The notes beneath the pieces are model-generated. The model had not been told where the DNA came from. It made no database searches and worked only from the letters and a program-made list of their open reading frames with translations. A stretch of 21,340 nt of DNA from the IMG/VR virus record IMGVR_UViG_3300022665_001001, positions 1-21,340 of that record, one strand, 5' to 3'. Made by a program: the position numbers and the translations under genes. Below, piece after piece: positions 1,841-20,695 of the stretch (the first letter of the stretch is position 1; every line of letters starts with the position of its first letter). The stretch comes from a virus.

Positions 1841-2117
1841 TAGCGGTATTCCACTCCGTACTCGTACCAGCGATCGCAGCCGATCCTATCGTAACAGCGA
1901 TCGTCCCAGTCGTATACGGAGCGTGTGTCCGCAACACGTCATTGCGTTCCGCCCATGGGAATTTCTCCCCGAACCCGATATGCATATCTTGGAGGGCGGT
2001 ATTTATATATCTTTTTGCTTGATCCTGACTAGCAGTGACGCCAGTTTGAATTCTCACTCGGTTGGATAAATCCGTGAATAAATCGAGAAAGGTCTCCGGA
2101 TGTGTATCAACAGCCAT
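1797..2117 (-). CDS. Head-tail adaptor-like protein, N-terminal part before frameshift
   Basis: The ATG at 2117 overlaps the TAA of the C1q-like gene (TAATG), so it is probably translationally coupled; no strong Shine-Dalgarno site is visible. It contains FLDLFTDLSNRVR, QDQAKRYINTALQDMHIGFG and KFPWAERNDVL, then an Ala/Gly/Thr beta segment ending NDFGENNVRVGG. It hits a TAG four codons later. In the other frame the expected continuation KIRISGEDVYEIS follows directly, which shows that the natural product is longer. The shift occurs at seven consecutive G on the coding strand. A sequencing or assembly indel is the simplest explanation; programmed frameshifting or a real mutation cannot be excluded. 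Confidence 0.65.
   Translation of the reverse strand: MAVDTHPETFLDLFTDLSNRVRIQTGVTASQDQAKRYINTALQDMHIGFGEKFPWAERNDVLRTHAPYTTGTIAVTIGSAAIAGTSTEWNTANDFGENNVRVGGED
1805..1811 (-). other. G7 homopolymer at the frameshift between two halves of one gene
   Basis: The plus strand has seven C, read as seven G on the coding strand. Upstream the frame reads GTC GGG GGG GAA GAT TAG. With one G fewer it reads GTC GGG GGG AAG ATT AGG, which joins VRVGG to KIRISGED without loss of any motif. The run is therefore the precise place of the frame change. Confidence 0.85.
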
Positions 2118-3121
2118 TACGATAACAGACAGCCAGAAAATGAGGTAACTAACTCCGTGGCTTGCCCCTCAATATCGACCGTATCAGCGCCCACGCCATC
2201 TACATTAGCCACTACTGTAGCAGTATCGCCACTATCCATATCTGCTACGACGGTTATAGTATGACCTATGACTCCAGGGAAATCAGCCGCTATATCGAAT
2301 CTGCTCCCTCGATAGTTTCGGTTGCTCGTATCGATTCGTATAAGCGATAAATCTGCGGCGGTCCCTATACCAAGAAGTTGAACGACCGCTGTGAGAAGAT
2401 ATCTACCTGTTACGGGCGCTGTAAAAGTGTCAGCGGTAAAGTCATTGCCTTGATCGAAAACTTCGGTGTCGAAGTCGACCGTTGCTACTGTGTTGTTGCC
2501 GGTAACATCAGCGTCGGTGGCGCTATTGAAAGCGAGGAAGCACGGATTTGATATCTTTGTAACATTGCCGTCGCGGTCGATCCTCATCCGCTCAGACATC
2601 GTGGTAGAGTCGTCCGGCGTCGTCAGAAACAGCAACCTCCCCGGCATGTCTCCATCGCCCGGCGCAGCATCTACCTCTGCACGAATAGCAGCAGCATTTT
2701 CGTAAGTATTCGAATCAAATCCCTGGAACGAAACAACCCCTAAGTTGTCTCCGCTCTGAACGACCGTATCCGTACCCACAGTCGCCCCGCGTGAGCGTCG
2801 TACCTGAATACCAGAGCCAAAGCTAGCCGTAGCATTATAGCGAGTCTGCTGCATGGTTGTGGTCGTGGCCGAGATTTCCAGTGGAAAGCTAGTAGCCACC
2901 GCTCCGATTCCTACGAGTCCGGCATCCGTGATCGTGACAGTAGAAGAGTCTTGCAGCCTCCTGCCGTTAGTCCCGTCGAATCTAGCTATGGCGTTGTCAG
3001 TCGAAGACGTTGGCCCTCGAAGAGTGGCGCCCGGTCCACGGAATCCGCCCCCACCAAACTGCGCTGCGACTGCTAGACCCAAAGCGATAGCTACAAAGGG
3101 GTAGATGTACCGCTTATTCAT
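2117..3121 (-). CDS. Membrane-anchored or secreted fibre protein with C1q-like head
   Basis: The protein has 334 residues. Residues about 7-21 form a hydrophobic segment after MNKRYIYP, resembling an uncleaved signal anchor or signal peptide; a Gly-rich linker follows. Residues about 38-68 carry TDNAIARFDGTNGRRLQDS, a repeat well known in environmental phage tail fibres. A region with GVVSFQGFDSNTYENAAAIRAE and MSERMRIDRDGNV resembles the domain that precedes fibre tips. The last 140 residues (CFLAFNSATDADVTGN through FDTEVFDQGNDF, TFTAPVTGRYLLTAVV) match the C1q/TNF-like jelly roll used as a trimeric receptor-binding head. The start ATG overlaps the previous stop (ATGA), with GGGGA about 8 bases upstream. 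A hydrophobic N-terminus is unusual for a fibre that must attach to a virion. Confidence 0.75.
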   Translation of the reverse strand: MNKRYIYPFVAIALGLAVAAQFGGGGFRGPGATLRGPTSSTDNAIARFDGTNGRRLQDSSTVTITDAGLVGIGAVATSFPLEISATTTTMQQTRYNATASFGSGIQVRRSRGATVGTDTVVQSGDNLGVVSFQGFDSNTYENAAAIRAEVDAAPGDGDMPGRLLFLTTPDDSTTMSERMRIDRDGNVTKISNPCFLAFNSATDADVTGNNTVATVDFDTEVFDQGNDFTADTFTAPVTGRYLLTAVVQLLGIGTAADLSLIRIDTSNRNYRGSRFDIAADFPGVIGHTITVVADMDSGDTATVVANVDGVGADTVDIEGQATELVTSFSGCLLS

Positions 3122-10046: not shown

Positions 10047-10228
10047 TACTTCTTTCGCTTTCTAAATGGAGTTCTACCCTTCCTCCTAGGTTTTGGATTA
10101 GGAGAAAATGGGCTTTTCCGTTTCTTTTTTGGAAACCCAAACAATCCTCTAAGTCTCTCTTGTAAACTTTGGTGCTTTGGCTCATCTTCCCTATGACGAT
10201 GTAGTTTCCTTTTGCGAGAAACCGCCAC
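10046..10228 (-). CDS. Small highly basic protein, GTG start
   Basis: The start is a GTG at 10228 that overlaps the TAG of the major capsid gene (TAGTG), with AGG 7 bases upstream, so it is probably coupled to capsid translation. The 60 residues include SRKRKLHRHREDEPKHQ, FGFPKKKRKSPF and PRRKGRTPFRKRKK, an extremely Arg/Lys-rich and Pro-containing chain. Comparable small basic proteins in phage heads can compact DNA, but this is inference. An A-rich stretch in the codons gives a hairpin-like sequence near 10110 that is better explained by the protein composition. Confidence 0.65.
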   Translation of the reverse strand: MAVSRKRKLHRHREDEPKHQSLQERLRGLFGFPKKKRKSPFSPNPKPRRKGRTPFRKRKK

Positions 10229-11145
10229 TAGCTAACCTGATGCCCCATCGTCCAGCGCCAATCCGTATGCGCCAATGCATACCGCACATACCCCCTCCAC
10301 TTTGCGATCAGCGTATCAATATCCTCCGCCATCGCAAATTCCATTGGGATACGATCGGTCCAGAACACCATATCCGTTCGCAGGCCGGAGTCGGAGAGCC
10401 ACCAGTTATTCACATCGAGAAGGTAGTTCCACTCCTTGATCGTATAAACGCCATTATGAACATTCCGGTTGTTATTAGCCGTATCCAGCTTGCCCATTGA
10501 GCTAACGATCTCAAAGGCTTCCTCAAACAAGTCCGGGGGGATCGCGATCTCATTTGGCACAACGTTGATCCGCTCTGCCTGATCGCCTCGGAAACCCCTC
10601 ATCTGAATTCGCGCAGTTGAGACCGCGGTTGCGGAGAGTGCAGCCGTACCGAGATTGTCAAACCCCGTAGCGGTAGACGCGCCCGAGTTTGTAGTGTGGC
10701 TATTAGAGCAAAGCGGCACACCCTCGCTATTAACATAAAAGAGCGTATCAACACTGAACGCATTATTGAACAGTCTCGCCCCATGCGTTTCTCTCGTTCG
10801 CGCTCCACTCGTCGCTAGACTCTTCGGGCGTTGATCCATGATATTATACTGATCATCATCAAACAACTTCCTCTCCACCTGAATACCATTCGTCCATTCA
10901 AGCGGAGTTGCAGTCGTATCAAACCCCTGAGCCGAAGTCTGGTAATCAACCGTGCCTGTAAACTGTGTCCAATCTGGCAGCGTTCCCACCTGGCTCCATC
11001 TCATATCCTCTCGGTTATTCGTTGGAACGAAGGTGAAAAACTCACCCAGCATCGAATCTAGCTGCGGGTAAGTCTCGAAAAAGATTTTCTGGAATCTCGG
11101 ATCCAGCAAATCCCCAAAGTTGGTTGAAATATGTGGTGTTGGCAT
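10228..11145 (-). CDS. Major capsid protein, HK97-like fold (Mu gpT-related type)
   Basis: The protein has 305 residues; a GGAAGG lies about 10 bases before the ATG. The N-terminus reads FGDLLDPRFQKIFFETYPQL, followed by FVPTNNREDMRWSQVGTLPD, then VERKLFDDDQYNIMDQRPKS. The central CSNSHTT, GFDNLGTAALSATAVSTAR and MRGFRGDQAERINVVPNEIA, then IPPDLFEEAFEIVSS, are the sequence of motifs seen in capsid proteins of the Mu gpT-like group. The last part contains NNWWLSD, AKWRGYVRYALAHTDWRW. It lies after the scaffold-like and decoration-like genes, which is the usual order. Length is typical. The chain should be the hexon/penton subunit of the head. Confidence 0.9.
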   Translation of the reverse strand: MPTPHISTNFGDLLDPRFQKIFFETYPQLDSMLGEFFTFVPTNNREDMRWSQVGTLPDWTQFTGTVDYQTSAQGFDTTATPLEWTNGIQVERKLFDDDQYNIMDQRPKSLATSGARTRETHGARLFNNAFSVDTLFYVNSEGVPLCSNSHTTNSGASTATGFDNLGTAALSATAVSTARIQMRGFRGDQAERINVVPNEIAIPPDLFEEAFEIVSSMGKLDTANNNRNVHNGVYTIKEWNYLLDVNNWWLSDSGLRTDMVFWTDRIPMEFAMAEDIDTLIAKWRGYVRYALAHTDWRWTMGHQVS

Positions 11146-12149: not shown

Positions 12150-12874
12150 GCTGCTTCACGCTTCCAACTACGCTCTTTCCAAACGGCATCCCAATCCTTA
12201 TACGCCCCTACACGGATGCCATTCTCGTAAAACGCTCTCTCCCTCACCGTCAACTCCTTGCCCTTATCAAGCTTCTGCCCACCACTGTCACCGCCTGCAC
12301 CTCCAGTTTCCATATGTGTGTCGTGCTGCGCGGGCTTAGTGGTTTGCATCTGCTCAACAGGGCCATACAGCCCTCTCAAGACCGCTAGGAGCGTAGTATC
12401 ATTATCCGCCATTCCCAAGTTGTTAACATAATGCGCATACTCCCCAAACACCTTCACATTCGCTGGAGAGCCCTCTTTAACAATCTCCGGATTAGCCACC
12501 TCATATTCCGAGATCGCACCGCGGCGAGCCGTCTGTTGGGATTGCACGGTAATCCCCGCGGCGATCTGCTCATCTATATGCGTCTCTTGCTGGCGATCCC
12601 AGATCGCATCGGCGGATGGCTGATCAATCTCTCCAGCCTCAACCGAAGCCGCCAACTCTTGACGCGAATATGACTTCTCCTTCAATTTCTTCGTTTCGAG
12701 GGCGGTGACTTTCTCGTTCAGAGCGTGAACTCGCCCTAACACATCGTCCAGCCGCCCCCGTGGAACCCACGAGCCATCGGCAGGTGGGGTGAAATTGGTG
12801 TTATCGGAAGGATGATCTCCGGAGGAAGCGTCAGAACTGCCGCTCTGCTCACCCCCTGCATTATCGTCCTGCAT
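12146..12874 (-). CDS. Putative capsid scaffolding protein
   Basis: The protein has 242 residues. It is the first gene after the promoter, with GAGGAG 8 bases before the ATG. Residues 1-36 are acidic and disordered (Ser, Gly, Asp; many Asn and Pro). Residues about 42-68 (LDDVLGRVHALNEKVTALET plus a Lys-rich continuation) form a coiled coil. The middle is Gln/Glu/Ala-rich helix, and the last 15 residues (DWDAVWKERSWKREAA) form an amphipathic basic helix of the kind scaffolds use to hold capsid subunits. Position just before the decoration and capsid genes supports this role. No protease motif is present. Identification is by architecture and position. Confidence 0.65.
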   Translation of the reverse strand: MQDDNAGGEQSGSSDASSGDHPSDNTNFTPPADGSWVPRGRLDDVLGRVHALNEKVTALETKKLKEKSYSRQELAASVEAGEIDQPSADAIWDRQQETHIDEQIAAGITVQSQQTARRGAISEYEVANPEIVKEGSPANVKVFGEYAHYVNNLGMADNDTTLLAVLRGLYGPVEQMQTTKPAQHDTHMETGGAGGDSGGQKLDKGKELTVRERAFYENGIRVGAYKDWDAVWKERSWKREAA

Positions 12875-12941
12875 CCGCTATACTCCTCAGATTGGCTCTG
12901 GATAGCCCCCGCTGACGAGACGGGGTTACGTCATATGACAG

Positions 12942-12975
12942 TCTGCTATATAGCAGAACATTACGTGAATGTCAA
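12942..12975 (-). promoter_or_regulatory. Sigma70-like promoter with palindromic operator over the -10 box
   Basis: On the minus strand TTGACA (12970-12975) is followed by a 17-base spacer and TATATA (12947-12952). Both boxes and the spacing are at or near the sigma70 ideal. The -10 box sits at the centre of a perfect 16-base palindrome, TCTGCTATATAGCAGA (12942-12957), a likely repressor or activator binding site. The site lies between the upstream terminator and the scaffold gene, leaving about 65 bases of leader. It should drive the capsid operon. Confidence 0.8.
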
Positions 12976-13004
12976 GGGTACAGATTGGGAACATTTTGGG
13001 CAGG

Positions 13005-13031
13005 AAAAAGCCCCGCTTTTACACGGGGCTT
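13005..13031 (-). terminator. Rho-independent terminator after the packaging/accessory genes
   Basis: On the minus strand the stem AAGCCCCG (13024-13031) pairs with CGGGGCTT (13008-13015) across an 8-base loop and is followed by further T (13005-13007), giving a T-run of five counting the stem end. The stem has eight perfect pairs, six of them in a G/C block. It stands 39 bases after the stop of the 64-residue gene and just before the promoter of the capsid operon, so it separates two transcription units. Confidence 0.85.
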
Positions 13032-13069
13032 CGCATTATGTAGAAGTCAGTTGATTGCTAGATGGGGCA

Positions 13070-13264
13070 TCACCGCCTAAGCTGATCTATTTTCCACGTT
13101 AGCACATCGTGAGCCATAGCGTAGTATTCATCTTTTATCAAATCCACTGTGACTCCCCAATCATCCCATCGTCCCCAATAATCTGGTTCTTCGCTTTTCA
13201 TACACCAATCCTTATGCGCTTCATAGAGTGCTTTAGCGCAGGCTTCTGGGGCTTTTTTTCTCAT
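13070..13264 (-). CDS. Small hypothetical protein, 64 residues
   Basis: The ATG overlaps the TGA of the gene before it (ATGA). The product starts MRKKAPEACAKALYEAHKDW and continues with a Trp/Asp-rich segment (EEPDYWGRWDDWGVTVDLI), ending with a helix that closes on DQLRR. It contains two Cys but no paired zinc motif. It is the last gene before the intrinsic terminator, so it ends the packaging transcription unit. I do not recognise a family. Confidence 0.6.
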   Translation of the reverse strand: MRKKAPEACAKALYEAHKDWCMKSEEPDYWGRWDDWGVTVDLIKDEYYAMAHDVLTWKIDQLRR

Positions 13265-13662
13265 TCCTCCTCATCCTTCATCATATCCACCTTCAACTCC
13301 CTCGCCATCTTCCCCGCCTCGATGATCGCTTTTGGAAGTTCCAACGCCCACTCAAGTGTTCTTTGCTGCCCAGTATTGAACGCCGCGGCGAGTTTTGCCT
13401 TCATCACATCATCAACATTCACCACATCAAGCCGGAAGATGTATTCGGTATTCTTAATAAGCTCCTCGGTAACTCGCTCTCCTGCTGCTTGTACGTAAGT
13501 CAGATACTTATCCCATGTTGGGATGGAGGTTAGAGCCTTCATATCCAAAGAGGCTTGAAGGGCGATGTTGAGCTTCGCGACTTGCGCTTTTTTATCCTCT
13601 ACGGATAGCTTACCCGTCTCTGCCTCAACCCGCTTCTTGTGTTCATCGAATGTTTCTGGCAT
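13261..13662 (-). CDS. Hypothetical helical protein between the Tat-signal gene and the terminator
   Basis: I select the ATG at 13662 (133 residues), which overlaps the preceding TGA and has GGAG 7 bases upstream; a longer frame would need a TTG. The chain is helical and charged: FDEHKKRVEAETGKLSVEDK, VAKLNIALQASLDMK, TWDKYLTYVQAAGERVTEEL, KAKLAAAFNTGQQRTLEWAL, closing with an acidic KDEEE. Coupling with both neighbours indicates a shared mRNA. Helical gene products between portal and capsid genes may act in head assembly, but I have no motif to support a specific role. Confidence 0.6.
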   Translation of the reverse strand: MPETFDEHKKRVEAETGKLSVEDKKAQVAKLNIALQASLDMKALTSIPTWDKYLTYVQAAGERVTEELIKNTEYIFRLDVVNVDDVMKAKLAAAFNTGQQRTLEWALELPKAIIEAGKMARELKVDMMKDEEE

Positions 13663-14183
13663 CAAACTTCTCCGGCTTCAAGTTGCGGCTCATCCGATAA
13701 GAGTAACCTACAATATCCTCTATACGTAATTGGAGGTGGGCTTACACTACTAATTTCCGATTGAGATAGTTCTGGCTTAATCCTAAAGTAAACTCTAAAC
13801 TGACTCTTATCCTTCCCATCAGTTACCCTATGTTCGTACATGTTGAAGGATAGTTCAAACATTCTCCATACGCTAGAAGGAGAACTAAGGCCAGTCATAA
13901 GATGCGGATAATAGACTGAGTTTGGAGCTGAGAACATAAAAGTATTCTCCGGGAAATGGTAACGATATGGGTCCAAAAGCTCCACATACTCCTCTCCTGT
14001 AACCGCATATATATTGTAAGTAGTTGGGCCTTCTCGATATTTACCTACAATCCAGTCGTATGCGTCAATCTCACTTTCAATCACGATAGGCTTAGAAGAT
14101 TTGGGGATCTTAGCGTAGGCCATTAGAGGCAAACTGCCAATAGCCGCCATTAGTCCACCTGTCAACACTTTACGTCTGTTCAT
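13662..14183 (-). CDS. Tat-signal-bearing exported protein, unknown function
   Basis: Tandem ATGs overlap the portal stop. I choose the ATG at 14183, because the AGGAG lies 7 bases upstream. The protein has 173 residues. Residues 1-24 form a signal peptide: MNRRKVLTGG has the twin arginine (R3, R4), residues 11-21 are hydrophobic, and AYA before K25 fits a signal peptidase site. This looks like a Tat signal (R-R-x-V-L), although the motif deviates from the strict consensus and Sec use is possible. The mature part contains EIDAYDWIVGKYREGP, YNIYAVTGEEYVELLDPYRY and WRMFELSFNMYEHRV; only one Cys is visible. The gene seems richer in A/T than the portal gene beside it, which suggests separate acquisition. 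No family is recognised. Confidence 0.65.
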   Translation of the reverse strand: MNRRKVLTGGLMAAIGSLPLMAYAKIPKSSKPIVIESEIDAYDWIVGKYREGPTTYNIYAVTGEEYVELLDPYRYHFPENTFMFSAPNSVYYPHLMTGLSSPSSVWRMFELSFNMYEHRVTDGKDKSQFRVYFRIKPELSQSEISSVSPPPITYRGYCRLLLSDEPQLEAGEV

Positions 14184-14185
14184 CA

Positions 14186-16525
14186 TCAAGCTCCTCTATT
14201 AGCCCCACCACCTGCTCCGGGCAGCGTCTCATCCACAAGCTGGTTATCCCCTACTGGTGCCGCTTCGGGTAGTGGTCCACCAACAGGGGGTCTACCTTCT
14301 GGCCCACCTCCCTGTCCCTGTTGTCCCTCTCCCGCTGCCGCACCTAGAGCCTGCTGTTGCTGCTCAACCTTCATCAATCCCTCAAGCATTTGCACCCACT
14401 CCGCGAACGCCTCCACGCCTTCCTCTTCTAAGAACCCAAACTCCTCACTCTCCGCGAACGCCATGATCTTCTGTAGATGCATCTGCGCTCCCTCAATCGG
14501 CAGCCCATTCGGCACCTTCCCTATCATAATATCCCCCATCGCCTCTTCCGCGGTGATGAATGGCATACCAAGCGGCGGGGTCAGATAGCGTTCGTGATCC
14601 ACGCCCAGCAACTTCCCGAGATCCTGGAAGAGATTGAAGATCCCTTTTTCCGCAGTCACAATCCCACTCTGTAACCCAATCGGACTGATGTAAAGCTCCG
14701 TGAGGGCTTGAAGCGCCTCTAGTTGCGTATCCCTGCTCGTATTAAACGCATTCGCCTCAAACTCGAACTCAAACACCGTATCGATATCATCCTTCTCAAT
14801 CGTCTTGTACGGATCGTCATTCGGATTTAGCGGTGTCGTAATCCTAATCTGCTTTTCCGCGGGCATAAAGTGCCGGTTAAGCTCATGCATGATTGACCAA
14901 ATCTGTGCTAGCCCGTGGAAGAAGCGCCGGAGTATGCGCTCGGGGCGGGAATCCCCTTGCCCACCAATCATCGCAATTCCCCTTGCGGTTCGTAGTGCGC
15001 TAGCCTGCCCCTGTGGCACTCTTCCAAGCTGGAGATCCCCGATCATAGAAAGCCGCTGATCTTCCCTATCAAGCAGTGAGAATACATTAAACGCAAAAGC
15101 GTGCCCCTGATTGGGAAGCGCGGGGAAGCTGATATCATTCCGCGGGTCGGATAGCGGATAACCCTCTCCCGGCCACAACCGAATAACCTCCTGCTTCATA
15201 CTAGACGTGGGGCGATAGAAGAAGAACGGGGAAAGCTGTAGCGTACCAAGATCCATCGCCTGATCTAGCACAACCTTCTTCACATCATGGAGGGCTTCAC
15301 TGAACTCCAACGAGCCTATCCCCGTTCTCTGCCCTCGTACGGGGAAGAACTGCTCTTCCGCAAACGGTCGAGCTACTTTGGAGTGCGGAAATGCCTCACT
15401 CAGTCGTCTCTGCCTCAACACAACATCAAACTGCGGTAGCACCCAATACACAACATCCTCAACCGGTCCACCCTCGCGTAATGGCATCATATCGAATACA
15501 AGATGGCGCTCTACCTGCTTATGCTCCACCGGATCGGGCATCCGCGAATCCAAATCCTCCCCTGCCATAGTAGCGCGCTGACTTGCCTCTTTAGAGTACT
15601 CTACATCTTTCCCCAACCCTGCACGAATAGTGTCAACCTGCTCCGCGGAGAGCAGATCGTAAAACTTATCCCTCTTGAGCCTCAAAATCTCCCCGAACTC
15701 AGGCCGATCAACCACCACCACATGCGCTGCGCCTTTGGGGTTGGATGGGCTAGGTGGTTGCAAATTCGCCACACCAGGGGGATGCAGAATATCCTCCCGA
15801 TCCTTAACCATAATCTTCGGGCCATCGAATACGACCACCTGGCGTGTGATAGCCATCTCCACAGGTGCGCCTTCGCTATCCGCATAGAACGCTACACGAA
15901 TAAGATCCTCATCCGGCAGCGTCACTTTGAAATCCCACGCCTCTAACGGATCAACGCCACCTCTTCTGCTCGCTTGTATCGCAACCGCATCTGGGTATCG
16001 CGTCTCCAACACGCGCTTGAAAAACACCCCCGGCATCTCTTCATCTGGTAGCGGAGGCGCAATCCTCAACTCCGTAGCTTGCTTCTTATCCCTAACCCAC
16101 GGGATGAACGCGGTGAAATGCCCATCATTAACAAATGCATCAATCAATTCCGCGAGCCAGACCTCCCCATTCTCCACATAGGCTTGATAGTCCAACACCG
16201 CATTAACGGTATCCTCTTTCTCTTTATCCTTCTCGCCTGTGGCTTTCGCTATGATCGTAGGGCGACGGGCTAGTGCGGCGTTGTAGAGCGTATCCTGTAT
16301 CCGCAAGCTCTTACTCGCCAGATCAGGGAGAGCCACATTAGACGACTCATCCCACACTGCACCCGTGCGCGCTCCCGTCCACTGCCGGAACTTCGCATAC
16401 CGTTGTGTGCGCGCCCACATATCGCTCGTGCGCGAACTCTCATCATCCTCCACAAACCTCTTCGCTCGCGCAACTAGGACTTCCTTATCAAGCCCCAACC
16501 TACGCCGTCTAAATCTCTCAGCCAT
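14186..16525 (-). CDS. Portal protein
   Basis: The protein has 779 residues, long for a portal but usual for podovirus-type connectors. Its start overlaps the upstream stop (ATGGCTGA). The first 60 residues form a basic, Arg-rich region. The stretch SKSLRIQDTLYNAALARRPT and later DGHFTAFIPWVRDKKQ, RDKFYDLLSAEQ, VEDVVYWVLPQFDVVLRQRR, FAEEQFFPVRGQRTGIGSLE, LHDVKKVVLDQAMDLGTLQL, SPFFFYRP and GRVPQGQASALRTARGIAMI show the wing, stem and crown pattern of portal proteins. The final 60 residues are low-complexity Gly/Gln/Pro. It lies after the terminase genes, the standard packaging order. It forms the ring through which DNA passes. Confidence 0.9.
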   Translation of the reverse strand: MAERFRRRRLGLDKEVLVARAKRFVEDDESSRTSDMWARTQRYAKFRQWTGARTGAVWDESSNVALPDLASKSLRIQDTLYNAALARRPTIIAKATGEKDKEKEDTVNAVLDYQAYVENGEVWLAELIDAFVNDGHFTAFIPWVRDKKQATELRIAPPLPDEEMPGVFFKRVLETRYPDAVAIQASRRGGVDPLEAWDFKVTLPDEDLIRVAFYADSEGAPVEMAITRQVVVFDGPKIMVKDREDILHPPGVANLQPPSPSNPKGAAHVVVVDRPEFGEILRLKRDKFYDLLSAEQVDTIRAGLGKDVEYSKEASQRATMAGEDLDSRMPDPVEHKQVERHLVFDMMPLREGGPVEDVVYWVLPQFDVVLRQRRLSEAFPHSKVARPFAEEQFFPVRGQRTGIGSLEFSEALHDVKKVVLDQAMDLGTLQLSPFFFYRPTSSMKQEVIRLWPGEGYPLSDPRNDISFPALPNQGHAFAFNVFSLLDREDQRLSMIGDLQLGRVPQGQASALRTARGIAMIGGQGDSRPERILRRFFHGLAQIWSIMHELNRHFMPAEKQIRITTPLNPNDDPYKTIEKDDIDTVFEFEFEANAFNTSRDTQLEALQALTELYISPIGLQSGIVTAEKGIFNLFQDLGKLLGVDHERYLTPPLGMPFITAEEAMGDIMIGKVPNGLPIEGAQMHLQKIMAFAESEEFGFLEEEGVEAFAEWVQMLEGLMKVEQQQQALGAAAGEGQQGQGGGPEGRPPVGGPLPEAAPVGDNQLVDETLPGAGGGANRGA

Positions 16526-16829
16526 TTTCTATATACCTAACTTCCGGTTCTCTATACATAATATCCAAAATGAAATTATCGCTTAATTGCCCTGTAATCC
16601 AATTGTTATGTGAGAGATCGCTTTGTGTCATCCACGCCTTGCATTCCCATGCCCAGATGATATCCAGCAGCTTCCCCTCTCCTATCCAATCTCCCTTTAA
16701 GCATTTAGCACAGATAGACACATCCATCATAGACTCATCAGCGAGTATGACTGTTACGAGATAGCCATCCATAGCAATATGTACTTCTATTCCGCAACAC
16801 TTACAACACCCTACGCGATCATCAGACAT
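16518..16829 (-). CDS. Zinc-ribbon-like small protein next to the portal gene
   Basis: I prefer the ATG at 16829 (103 residues), because it overlaps the stop of the gene before it; the longer frame from 16886 would overlap that gene by 65 bases. Cysteines C8, C9, C11 and C12 (GCCKCCG) and C40 and C43 (ICAKC) suggest two zinc knuckles; C63 is a further cysteine. Between them lies a beta hairpin (VHIAMDGYLVTVILADES), as in zinc ribbons. The remainder is Trp-rich (DIIWAWECKAW). It may bind nucleic acid or a packaging partner, but the target is unknown. Its base composition looks somewhat more A/T-rich than its neighbours. Confidence 0.55.
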   Translation of the reverse strand: MSDDRVGCCKCCGIEVHIAMDGYLVTVILADESMMDVSICAKCLKGDWIGEGKLLDIIWAWECKAWMTQSDLSHNNWITGQLSDNFILDIMYREPEVRYIENG

Positions 16830-17169
16830 GGGTTTTGGGGTTCCAACCTTCGTTTTCAGCACTAGCAAACGCCTCGTCTTTCTCAACTTGTGTCAATTGA
16901 GCGGGCATCTTACTAGCCTCATCCTCACTATCCGGCAACAGCCCCTCCGGATAAAGATCCAAAAACTTCTGCCTCGCCTCATACCTCTTCGTGCGAAACA
17001 CCTTCCTCGCTTCCGCCGCAGCACTCAGCACAGCTTTGGAATACTCATCCACAGCTTTGCTAGCCGCTTCGCTATACACCCTCGTCTTCCCCCAACCCGC
17101 ATAGCAAACCTCATCTGGCTTGAGAATTGTCTTGCGGTCCGCATCGCATACGAATACTTTAGCCATCAT
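16822..17169 (-). CDS. Hypothetical helical protein after the large terminase
   Basis: The gene encodes 115 residues from the ATG at 17169; another ATG follows at once (17166). It overlaps the terminase stop. The N-terminus (VFVCDADRKTILKPDEVCYA) has two cysteines, and the middle is a charged Ala-rich helix (SEAASKAVDEYSKAVLSAAA, EARKVFRTKRYEARQKFLDL). The C-terminus is acidic with little structure. There is no recognisable family. Translation coupled to the terminase gene suggests it is expressed with the packaging machinery. Confidence 0.6.
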   Translation of the reverse strand: MMAKVFVCDADRKTILKPDEVCYAGWGKTRVYSEAASKAVDEYSKAVLSAAAEARKVFRTKRYEARQKFLDLYPEGLLPDSEDEASKMPAQLTQVEKDEAFASAENEGWNPKTHV

Positions 17170-19537: not shown

Positions 19538-19768
19538 TCAATTACCTATAAGGGTTTTCATTTCACTCGTATACGCGAAACAGGGTTCTCCAACCTTAAC
19601 TCCATATGGCCCAACCCAGGAGTTTTCACAGTCCTCTTGTGTAGCTTTACGTTCTACTCCAAGCCCATATGTTATAAGTAGTTCTTCAAGATTATCATAG
19701 CCTATGTCTCTATGCTCAGAGTTATCAAATTTTAGCAGTAGAGCGCGTAGAAAGCCATCTTTATTCAT
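19538..19768 (-). CDS. Small hypothetical protein, 76 residues
   Basis: Three tandem ATGs (19774, 19771, 19768) overlap the end of the lipoprotein gene. I select 19768, because a GGAG lies 7 bases upstream. The product reads MNKDGFLRALLLKFDNSEHR, then a helical segment (IGYDNLEELLITYGLG) and a beta part with VGPYGVKVGEPCFAY, ending LIGN. It has two cysteines. I do not recognise the family. It looks richer in A/T than neighbouring genes. It shares the short-gene cluster before the terminases, so it may be a host-interaction or lysis-linked accessory. Confidence 0.55.
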   Translation of the reverse strand: MNKDGFLRALLLKFDNSEHRDIGYDNLEELLITYGLGVERKATQEDCENSWVGPYGVKVGEPCFAYTSEMKTLIGN

Positions 19769-20030
19769 CATCATTCTCCAGTAACAACGTCTGAGAATTA
19801 CACTTCACCCTAAATCTCTCCGCAGCATTCGGATCAACCTCAACCAACCTCACCCACGTAGAGGCGGGCAATCTACACGGTGCAGTGCTATCCCACGTCT
19901 CGGCGATCAGCCCCTTCAACCCCCGATCAGCTATAGGTTGGGCTGCGGCTAAGACTGCATCTCGCGTTGTGCTAACCTCCGCACAGCCCATGAGAAGAAG
20001 TACCGCCAAAGGCGCTAGCGCGCCCCTCAT
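19761..20030 (-). CDS. Putative phage lipoprotein (lysis-region, possibly spanin-like)
   Basis: The protein has 89 residues. A signal peptide with a hydrophobic core (MRGALAPLAVLLLMGC) ends in the lipobox-like L13-M14-G15-C16, giving a mature lipoprotein with Ala at +2, which favours transport to the outer membrane. The mature part (TRDAVLAAAQPIADRGLKG through CRLPASTWVRLVEVDPNAAE) is helical with two cysteines. Short lipoproteins beside holin-like genes may serve as outer-membrane spanins or related lysis aids, but Rz1-type proline richness is absent, so this is uncertain. The start overlaps the previous stop (ATGA). Codons just after the start contain a GGCGC-GCTA-GCGCC hairpin. Confidence 0.6.
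   Translation of the reverse strand: MRGALAPLAVLLLMGCAEVSTTRDAVLAAAQPIADRGLKGLIAETWDSTAPCRLPASTWVRLVEVDPNAAERFRVKCNSQTLLLENDDE
20009..20024. repeat. 16-bp repeat with inner palindrome, copy 1
   Basis: AAGGCGCTAGCGCGCC occurs here, within the first codons of the lipoprotein gene, and again at 21070-21085 in the non-coding region. The inner GCGCTAGCGC is a palindrome, so each copy can bind a dimeric protein or fold as a small hairpin. Confidence 0.55.
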
Positions 20031-20355: not shown

Positions 20356-20474
20356 CCCCAAAATCCTTCCATCAGGTTATAGAATACAGGTTGATAGCCG
20401 GTCCCACCAGATGGGTCATCAGGACGAATACCATCATCATTTCCGCCAGATAGCAGATATCCAAGTGTATTCAC
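20352..20474 (-). CDS. Small ORF, 40 residues, with duplicated N-terminus
   Basis: The GTG at 20474 overlaps the TGA of the upstream gene (GTGA), and GAGAGG lies about 9 bases upstream. The product begins VNTLGYLLSGGNDDG and ends with YNLMEGFWG; its TGA overlaps the ATG of the holin-like gene. After the shared first eleven residues it diverges and has a Pro/Gly/Asp-rich middle with no membrane segment. It may be a degraded duplicate of the next gene or a small antiholin-like partner; neither is proven. Confidence 0.45.
   Translation of the reverse strand: MNTLGYLLSGGNDDGIRPDDPSGGTGYQPVFYNLMEGFWG
20442..20471. repeat. Direct repeat copy A encoding NTLGYLLSGG
   Basis: This is the upstream partner of 20323-20352 (27 of 30 identical). 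It lies just after the GTG of the 40-residue ORF. The three differences are scattered, so the duplication is not very recent, and the coding meaning is kept in both copies. Confidence 0.8.
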
Positions 20475-20695
20475 CAGCTTATACCTCTCGTTTTCAGATC
20501 TTCTTCAGCTTCTACTAAGTCCTGCTTTGCCTTTTCGTAGCTTTCTTTCATGTTGTCGGCAAGAGCTTTTATTCTCTCTGTAGAAGCAGGACTCGAATTA
20601 AATGTACGATTGAAGTTTCCATACGACTCTATCCTCTCAAGACAGATTTCTCGATATTCTAGGAGCATTTTCATCACGTCATCCATGGCATCCAT
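20471..20695 (-). CDS. Small coiled-coil hypothetical protein
   Basis: The gene encodes 74 residues from the ATG at 20695. A second ATG at 20686 would give 71 residues and lies at a better distance from the AAAAGG upstream. The chain is almost wholly helical and acidic: MKMLLEYREICLERIESYGN, then STERIKALADNMKESYEKAK and DLVEAEEDLKTRG, a likely coiled coil in two parts around a short loop with FNRTFNSSPA. It has one cysteine. The 5' half is inside the arm of the right fold-back. It looks more A/T-rich than the packaging genes. Function unknown. Confidence 0.6.
   Translation of the reverse strand: MDAMDDVMKMLLEYREICLERIESYGNFNRTFNSSPASTERIKALADNMKESYEKAKQDLVEAEEDLKTRGISW

Follow-up and report, generated by a model that had tools for sequence, protein, structure and literature searches.

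A Tat-type leader as the best reading of the N-terminus of a small accessory protein in a phage packaging/head operon

The gene and its slot in the late operon

Does a phage operon for DNA packaging and head assembly encode a protein destined for export? The locus that raises this question lies in a 21,340-base viral record (hereafter the window, meaning the whole stretch of DNA analysed), whose late genes are on the minus strand. In transcriptional order, these comprise small terminase, large terminase, two small genes, an SU10-type portal gene, and the gene under study (the leader gene), followed by genes of 133 and 64 aa, two genes with scaffold-like and zinc-ribbon-like products, a 237-aa gene, and one encoding a Mu gpT-like capsid protein. 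Of these labels, small terminase, scaffold, and zinc represent readings from sequence and position. The features that concern the leader gene and its two slot partners are as follows.

13662..14183 (read from 14183 down to 13662), minus strand: whole gene, 173 aa plus stop (ORF, start context, GC)
14112..14183, minus strand: residues 1-24, MNRRKVLTGGLMAAIGSLPLMAYA, best read as a Tat-type leader with a predicted cut after AYA (TATFIND-like rule and controls)
13665..14111, minus strand: predicted mature domain, residues 25-173, of the TGEEY/YWRIxPE family (relatives-only profile, AlphaFold2)
14186..16525, minus strand: portal gene, upstream slot partner (Pfam SU10_portal PF23899, E 1.8e-13; PHROG portal, E 2.8e-8)
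13261..13662, minus strand: 133-aa gene, conserved in relatives, downstream slot partner (homologues in many loci)

A sequence-only reading of this DNA had described a 173-residue ORF (MNRRKVLTGG...AYA) flanked by a portal gene and two small genes and differing from the portal gene in base composition. The ORF is real and is located on the minus strand, and its neighbours are, as described, an SU10-type portal gene and two small ORFs (13261-13662 and 13070-13264). Translation from the ATG at 14183, which has a good ribosome-binding site (AGGAG, 7 nt upstream), yields the N-terminus MNRRKVLTGGLMAAIGSLPLMAYA followed by KIPKSS. Given that an alternative ATG of the gene at 14186 is overlapped by the portal stop (14188-14186) and that the gene's own stop is overlapped by the next ORF downstream, the leader gene is tightly coupled translationally. 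Its base composition is indeed unlike that of the portal gene, with a GC content of 42.1% (GC3, 38.5%) versus 54.5% (GC3, 58.1%); the 133-aa gene has 48.8%, and GC is about equally low in other small window genes (16518-16886, 19538-19774, and 20471-20695).

Comparison with related loci revealed that the leader gene is an accessory insertion in the slot between the portal gene and the 133-aa gene. These two genes are nearly adjacent in about 64 of the 83 distinct loci having both, and the other loci carry various inserts. The gene had also been proposed to be a moron, a view with which the accessory slot and the deviant GC agree. Neither a minus-strand sigma-70-like promoter, the only promoter type covered, nor a terminator was found within 12800-16600; since no promoter and terminator of its own were found, the leader gene is not a classic moron. 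As for other occupants of the slot, a Gfo/Idh/MocA-type oxidoreductase-like gene (MRMAVIGCGDMGKRHARAL) is found there in L038 (8300-9130) and L040 (15525-16391), and a small protein with an HExxH motif in L010 (16221-16538).

The N-terminal leader and leader ORFs in related packaging modules

Residues 1-24 satisfy a TATFIND-like rule, with NRRKVL at residues 2-7 followed by an uncharged, moderately hydrophobic stretch; the peak Kyte-Doolittle mean of the leader is 2.03. Across related phage loci, 36 of 19,234 ATG starts pass this rule, and ten of the 36 have a ribosome-binding site, two alternative starts of the leader gene among them. A stricter scan admitting ATG, GTG, and TTG detected 13 starts with a ribosome-binding site in the related loci, including some duplicates and some implausible ORFs, compared with 2 in reversed and 0-2 in shuffled sequence. 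Inspection by eye left approximately 10 distinct contigs with a convincing leader ORF, the unique sequence amounting to roughly 1.65 Mb. No Tat-like leader with a ribosome-binding site occurs in eight reference phages (358 kb), a comparison that is not significant by itself because there are only about 10 convincing contigs per 1.65 Mb or so.

The N-terminus of the window protein can be regarded with firmness as signal-like, and a Tat-type leader is its best reading. We consider it probable that the protein leaves the cytoplasm by some route, and Tat is predicted, with somewhat better than even chances, to be that route. A compact folded domain suits Tat. The window protein was not among the matches listed for TIGR01409, the NCBI Tat-signal model, for which the leader ORFs of L153 and L066 were listed above the cut-off; Tat is therefore likely over Sec, not firmly so. 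Its twin-arginine motif has V in place of F, and the leader is not carried by any of the 22 relatives of the protein described below. The earlier claim of a Tat-exported protein is thus borne out by the TATFIND-like rule and its controls as far as the best reading of the leader goes, and it is left without a listed TIGR01409 match.

Related packaging modules contain further Tat-like leader ORFs. One is positioned exactly between the small and large terminase genes (L066), one between the large terminase and portal genes (L067), and others upstream of the small terminase gene (L017, L021, and L014). They are also found in four contigs that have a gene of the family to which residues 25-173 belong (L151, L153, L165, and L180), and the one in L165 overlaps the family gene's end; because these contigs were selected by the family motif, the co-occurrence is suggestive only. 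Three of these leaders, in L165, L180, and L066, show sequence relatedness (E 6e-11 to 7e-4), and in L066 at least the sequence past the leader differs, which suggests that a leader module has been joined to different cargo. By extension, the tailed phages of this group might use a modular Tat leader on varied small cargo in packaging/head operons, in this case carrying a domain with a capsid-like hairpin to the periplasm late in infection, a generalization that we view as speculative and rather unlikely. Among the titles and abstracts listed by literature searches, none described Tat leaders in phage head operons. A match of Acetobacter phage phiAO1 to a leader ORF was dismissed as chance; phiAO1 has no leader there.

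Several other ORFs with leader-like features were observed. The 71-aa Tat-like leader ORF of L014 (2029-2241) has a body that aligns with two short stretches of capsid protein whose order is exchanged (E 2.5e-5 in a search of all ORFs), which may be chance or a capsid remnant. On the minus strand of the window, an 89-aa ORF (19761-20030) has a lipoprotein-type start (MRGALAPLAVLLLMGCAEV) and a sub-significant PHROG spanin match (E 0.17). A 334-aa protein, also encoded on the minus strand (2117-3121), has a signal-like hydrophobic N-terminus (MNKRYIYPFVAIALGLAVAAQF) followed by a fibre-like body, and is a second possible exported product of the phage.

A small-protein family and its likeness to a capsid hairpin

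Used alone as query, the window protein had no match in Pfam, PHROGs, NCBIfam, or INPHARED, a viral-contig scan with it detected no relative, and PADLOC returned nothing for it. Relatives were reached by way of the large terminase and the portal, which led to about 140 loci; tblastn within these loci detected L050 at E 2.6e-5 and weaker matches in L010, L011, and L072. A profile built from relatives, with the window left out, recovered the window ORF at E 1e-7 to 7e-10 among 18,677 ORFs. Residues 25-173 are thus no orphan: 22 relatives were found, 21 of which were aligned with the window sequence, and these comparisons showed homology to a small phage protein family new to the libraries searched. 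The family is characterized by TGEEY, YWRIxPE, and a terminal RxYxRLLVS, and was not found in Pfam, PHROGs, NCBIfam, or PDB; no member turned up either in 385 genomes of one bacterial class, searched without a positive control. Most relatives start about where the window's domain starts, past the leader, and the leader is an addition to the family body, seen among the members found only in that of the window.

Intein-like sequences were noticed in terminase and portal-like genes of these contigs. The 704-aa large terminase of L010 (9974-12088; also L011) has a mini-intein-like stretch within its Walker A region, reading GGNGA-CLPLDAPVL...VVSN-SKTE, and a portal-like ORF of 1021 aa in L179 (4444-7506, reverse-complement coordinates) has an intein-like segment (CFSLDTDILTKDGWKLIADVKVGEHVLS) first.

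In terminase relatives, family genes lie between the terminase genes (L010, L024, and L072), between large terminase and portal (L002, L050, and L063), or upstream of the small terminase (L009). In a wider set of phages (L148, L149, L179, and L180), they lie, judged by gene size and order, between portal and scaffold, as in the window. The L151 member is an exception, with neighbours that do not look like head genes. Since the family is sporadic, being present in 3 of 39 records of relatives, it is not a core head part. Given that the relatives lack the leader and are found mostly among packaging and capsid genes, the window protein seems to be an internal accessory protein turned into an exported one, and the association of the family with capsid genes suggests that its ancestral role was in the cytoplasm, a role that an exported copy would have left behind. 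The body of the protein is not of an envelope family, and to that extent the earlier suggestion of a moron that changes the host envelope is not supported.

AlphaFold2 models of the window domain (pLDDT 81.9, pTM 0.76) and of the relative in L187 (pLDDT 87.8, pTM 0.78) have in common the order helix, strand, helix, long hairpin. The structure prediction of residues 25-173 that had been proposed as a check thus yielded a fold matching the predicted fold of a relative. Foldseek searches with the models returned no significant structural match; there were short sub-significant overlaps with HK97 capsid proteins. Matches to a "Thoeris anti-defense 2-like" protein of phage PaBG (E 0.18) and to Dickeya phage JA11 (E 0.053) were not kept, and an anti-Thoeris role was not adopted, because neither was among the hits listed for the window model.

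The comparison with the capsid protein involves two further features.

13699..13866, minus strand: C-terminal part of the domain, second helix and long hairpin (VYFRIKPE...YRGYCRLLLSDEP), boundaries approximate (model secondary structure; hhalign)
10228..11145, minus strand: major capsid protein, Mu gpT-like (Pfam Mu-like_gpT, E 2.8e-10, and Phage_capsid_4, E 3.7e-9; PHROG major head protein, E 3.4e-11)

In hhalign, the C-terminal hairpin of the capsid protein (MVFWTDRIPMEF...KWRGYVRY) aligned with the family hairpin, the resemblance lying in the signature YWRIxPE...W.gYxR. Capsid proteins that a motif-based DNA search had drawn into the family profile were removed, and the comparison was repeated without motif-selected loci, upon which the hhalign probability fell from 94.6% to 18.9% and the score stayed far above shuffles. 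With these unbiased (strict) sets, the score was 28.5 (P 0.0012) over about 22 columns only, compared with a mean of 12.7 and a maximum of 17.0 for 60 column-shuffled controls, 16.0 for a reversed control, and no more than 16.8 when seven other head proteins were compared; the full family gave 36.3 (P 2.7e-5, probability 74.3%). Homology and convergence of the hairpins are not separable over so short a stretch, and neither a complete HK97 fold nor a full-length capsid match was found in the window domain. The capsid family is present in six motif-found family contigs (L148, L149, L157, L179, L185, and L187) and in 0 of 11 motif-matching contigs outside both the family and the capsid group; several other motif-found family contigs are short or end before the capsid position. 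In distant gpT-like capsid proteins of L154, L158, L160, and L162, the C-terminal hairpin contains FYWRIxPEF, which is the motif of the family as well.

Explanations weighed, and known phage systems

The explanation that we lean toward, somewhat above even, is that, in an environmental tailed phage, a Tat-type leader was added to the N-terminus of an accessory head-module protein from a leaderless family, and that the protein is probably exported. The protein would be translated together with the head genes and fold in the cytoplasm, its RR leader would engage the host Tat translocase, and signal peptidase I would cut after AYA, delivering an alpha/beta domain of about 149 residues to the periplasm at a late stage of infection. 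Its target there may be the envelope, where interference with secondary adsorption or with DNA entry would be the likeliest action and tuning of lysis the alternative; any one of these putative actions taken singly is doubtful, and the envelope role is the weakest step of the proposal. Control of superinfection, as the sequence-only reading had suggested, is a possible role. For the relatives that lack a leader, a site of action in the cytoplasm is probable, perhaps together with the capsid, to whose C-terminal hairpin theirs is similar. Counted against this explanation are the V for F in the motif, the window protein's absence from the TIGR01409 matches listed, the relatives' lack of a leader, and the tie of the family to capsid genes.

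A leader as short as 24 residues, with three basic residues and a hydrophobic stretch peaking at 2.03, would serve Sec too, and the TIGR01409 result likewise fits a Sec-type signal or an uncleaved N-terminal anchor that leaves the domain facing the periplasm without Tat. We consider this unlikely, as the RR falls inside a near-consensus NRRKVL, the core is Gly-rich and moderate, and related packaging modules hold clear Tat-like leaders. The leader stretch could also be untranslated or non-functional, with a true start downstream (e.g., GTG 14084) and a cytoplasmic accessory head protein as the product; the relatives begin about there without a leader, and the family is tied to head modules and to this capsid type. 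However, the downstream ribosome-binding sites are weaker than that of ATG 14183, whose AGGAG is spaced at 7 nt and which is coupled to the portal gene, and a chance Tat-like leader at a given start is rare, so that this possibility appears quite improbable. A virion or head-assembly protein that keeps its hydrophobic N-terminus, placed in or on the head as a mimic of the capsid hairpin, for example, or serving as an ejected internal protein, would account for the hairpin likeness to capsid (hhalign 28.5 versus a shuffled maximum of 17.0, n = 60), for the capsid family in six motif-found contigs, and for the sub-significant Foldseek overlaps with HK97 capsid proteins. We find it very improbable: the family is sporadic, only about 22 columns match, the L151 member lies away from head genes, and the hydrophobic N-terminus is absent from the relatives.

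Our findings thus concern a protein family that is absent from the reference libraries searched and often found alongside one capsid type, and one member of which appears to have acquired a leader for export. Should the Tat route be confirmed, phages would be using the host pathway for folded proteins from inside a head operon. The recurrent leader ORFs in related packaging modules make the Tat idea testable in several phages.

Among known systems, Lom and Bor of lambda are phage-encoded exported proteins carried as accessory genes ("morons"), and both are annotated in lambda. Like them, the window gene is accessory and its product is predicted to be exported. Unlike Lom and Bor, which are encoded outside the head module, the window gene sits inside the packaging/head operon and is translationally coupled; no sequence relation to them and no promoter or terminator of its own were found, and its relatives are leaderless. 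With the Mu gpT-like, HK97-fold major capsid protein, the window family shows a resemblance in the hairpin signature, whereas the rest of the 149-residue domain, beyond the approximately 22 matching columns, does not match. The releasin gp25 of phage Mu is a phage membrane protein with a twin-arginine motif (PMC9239132). Compared by description, the window protein also has such a motif, but the releasin differs from it in its reversed topology and its role in lysis (PMC9239132).
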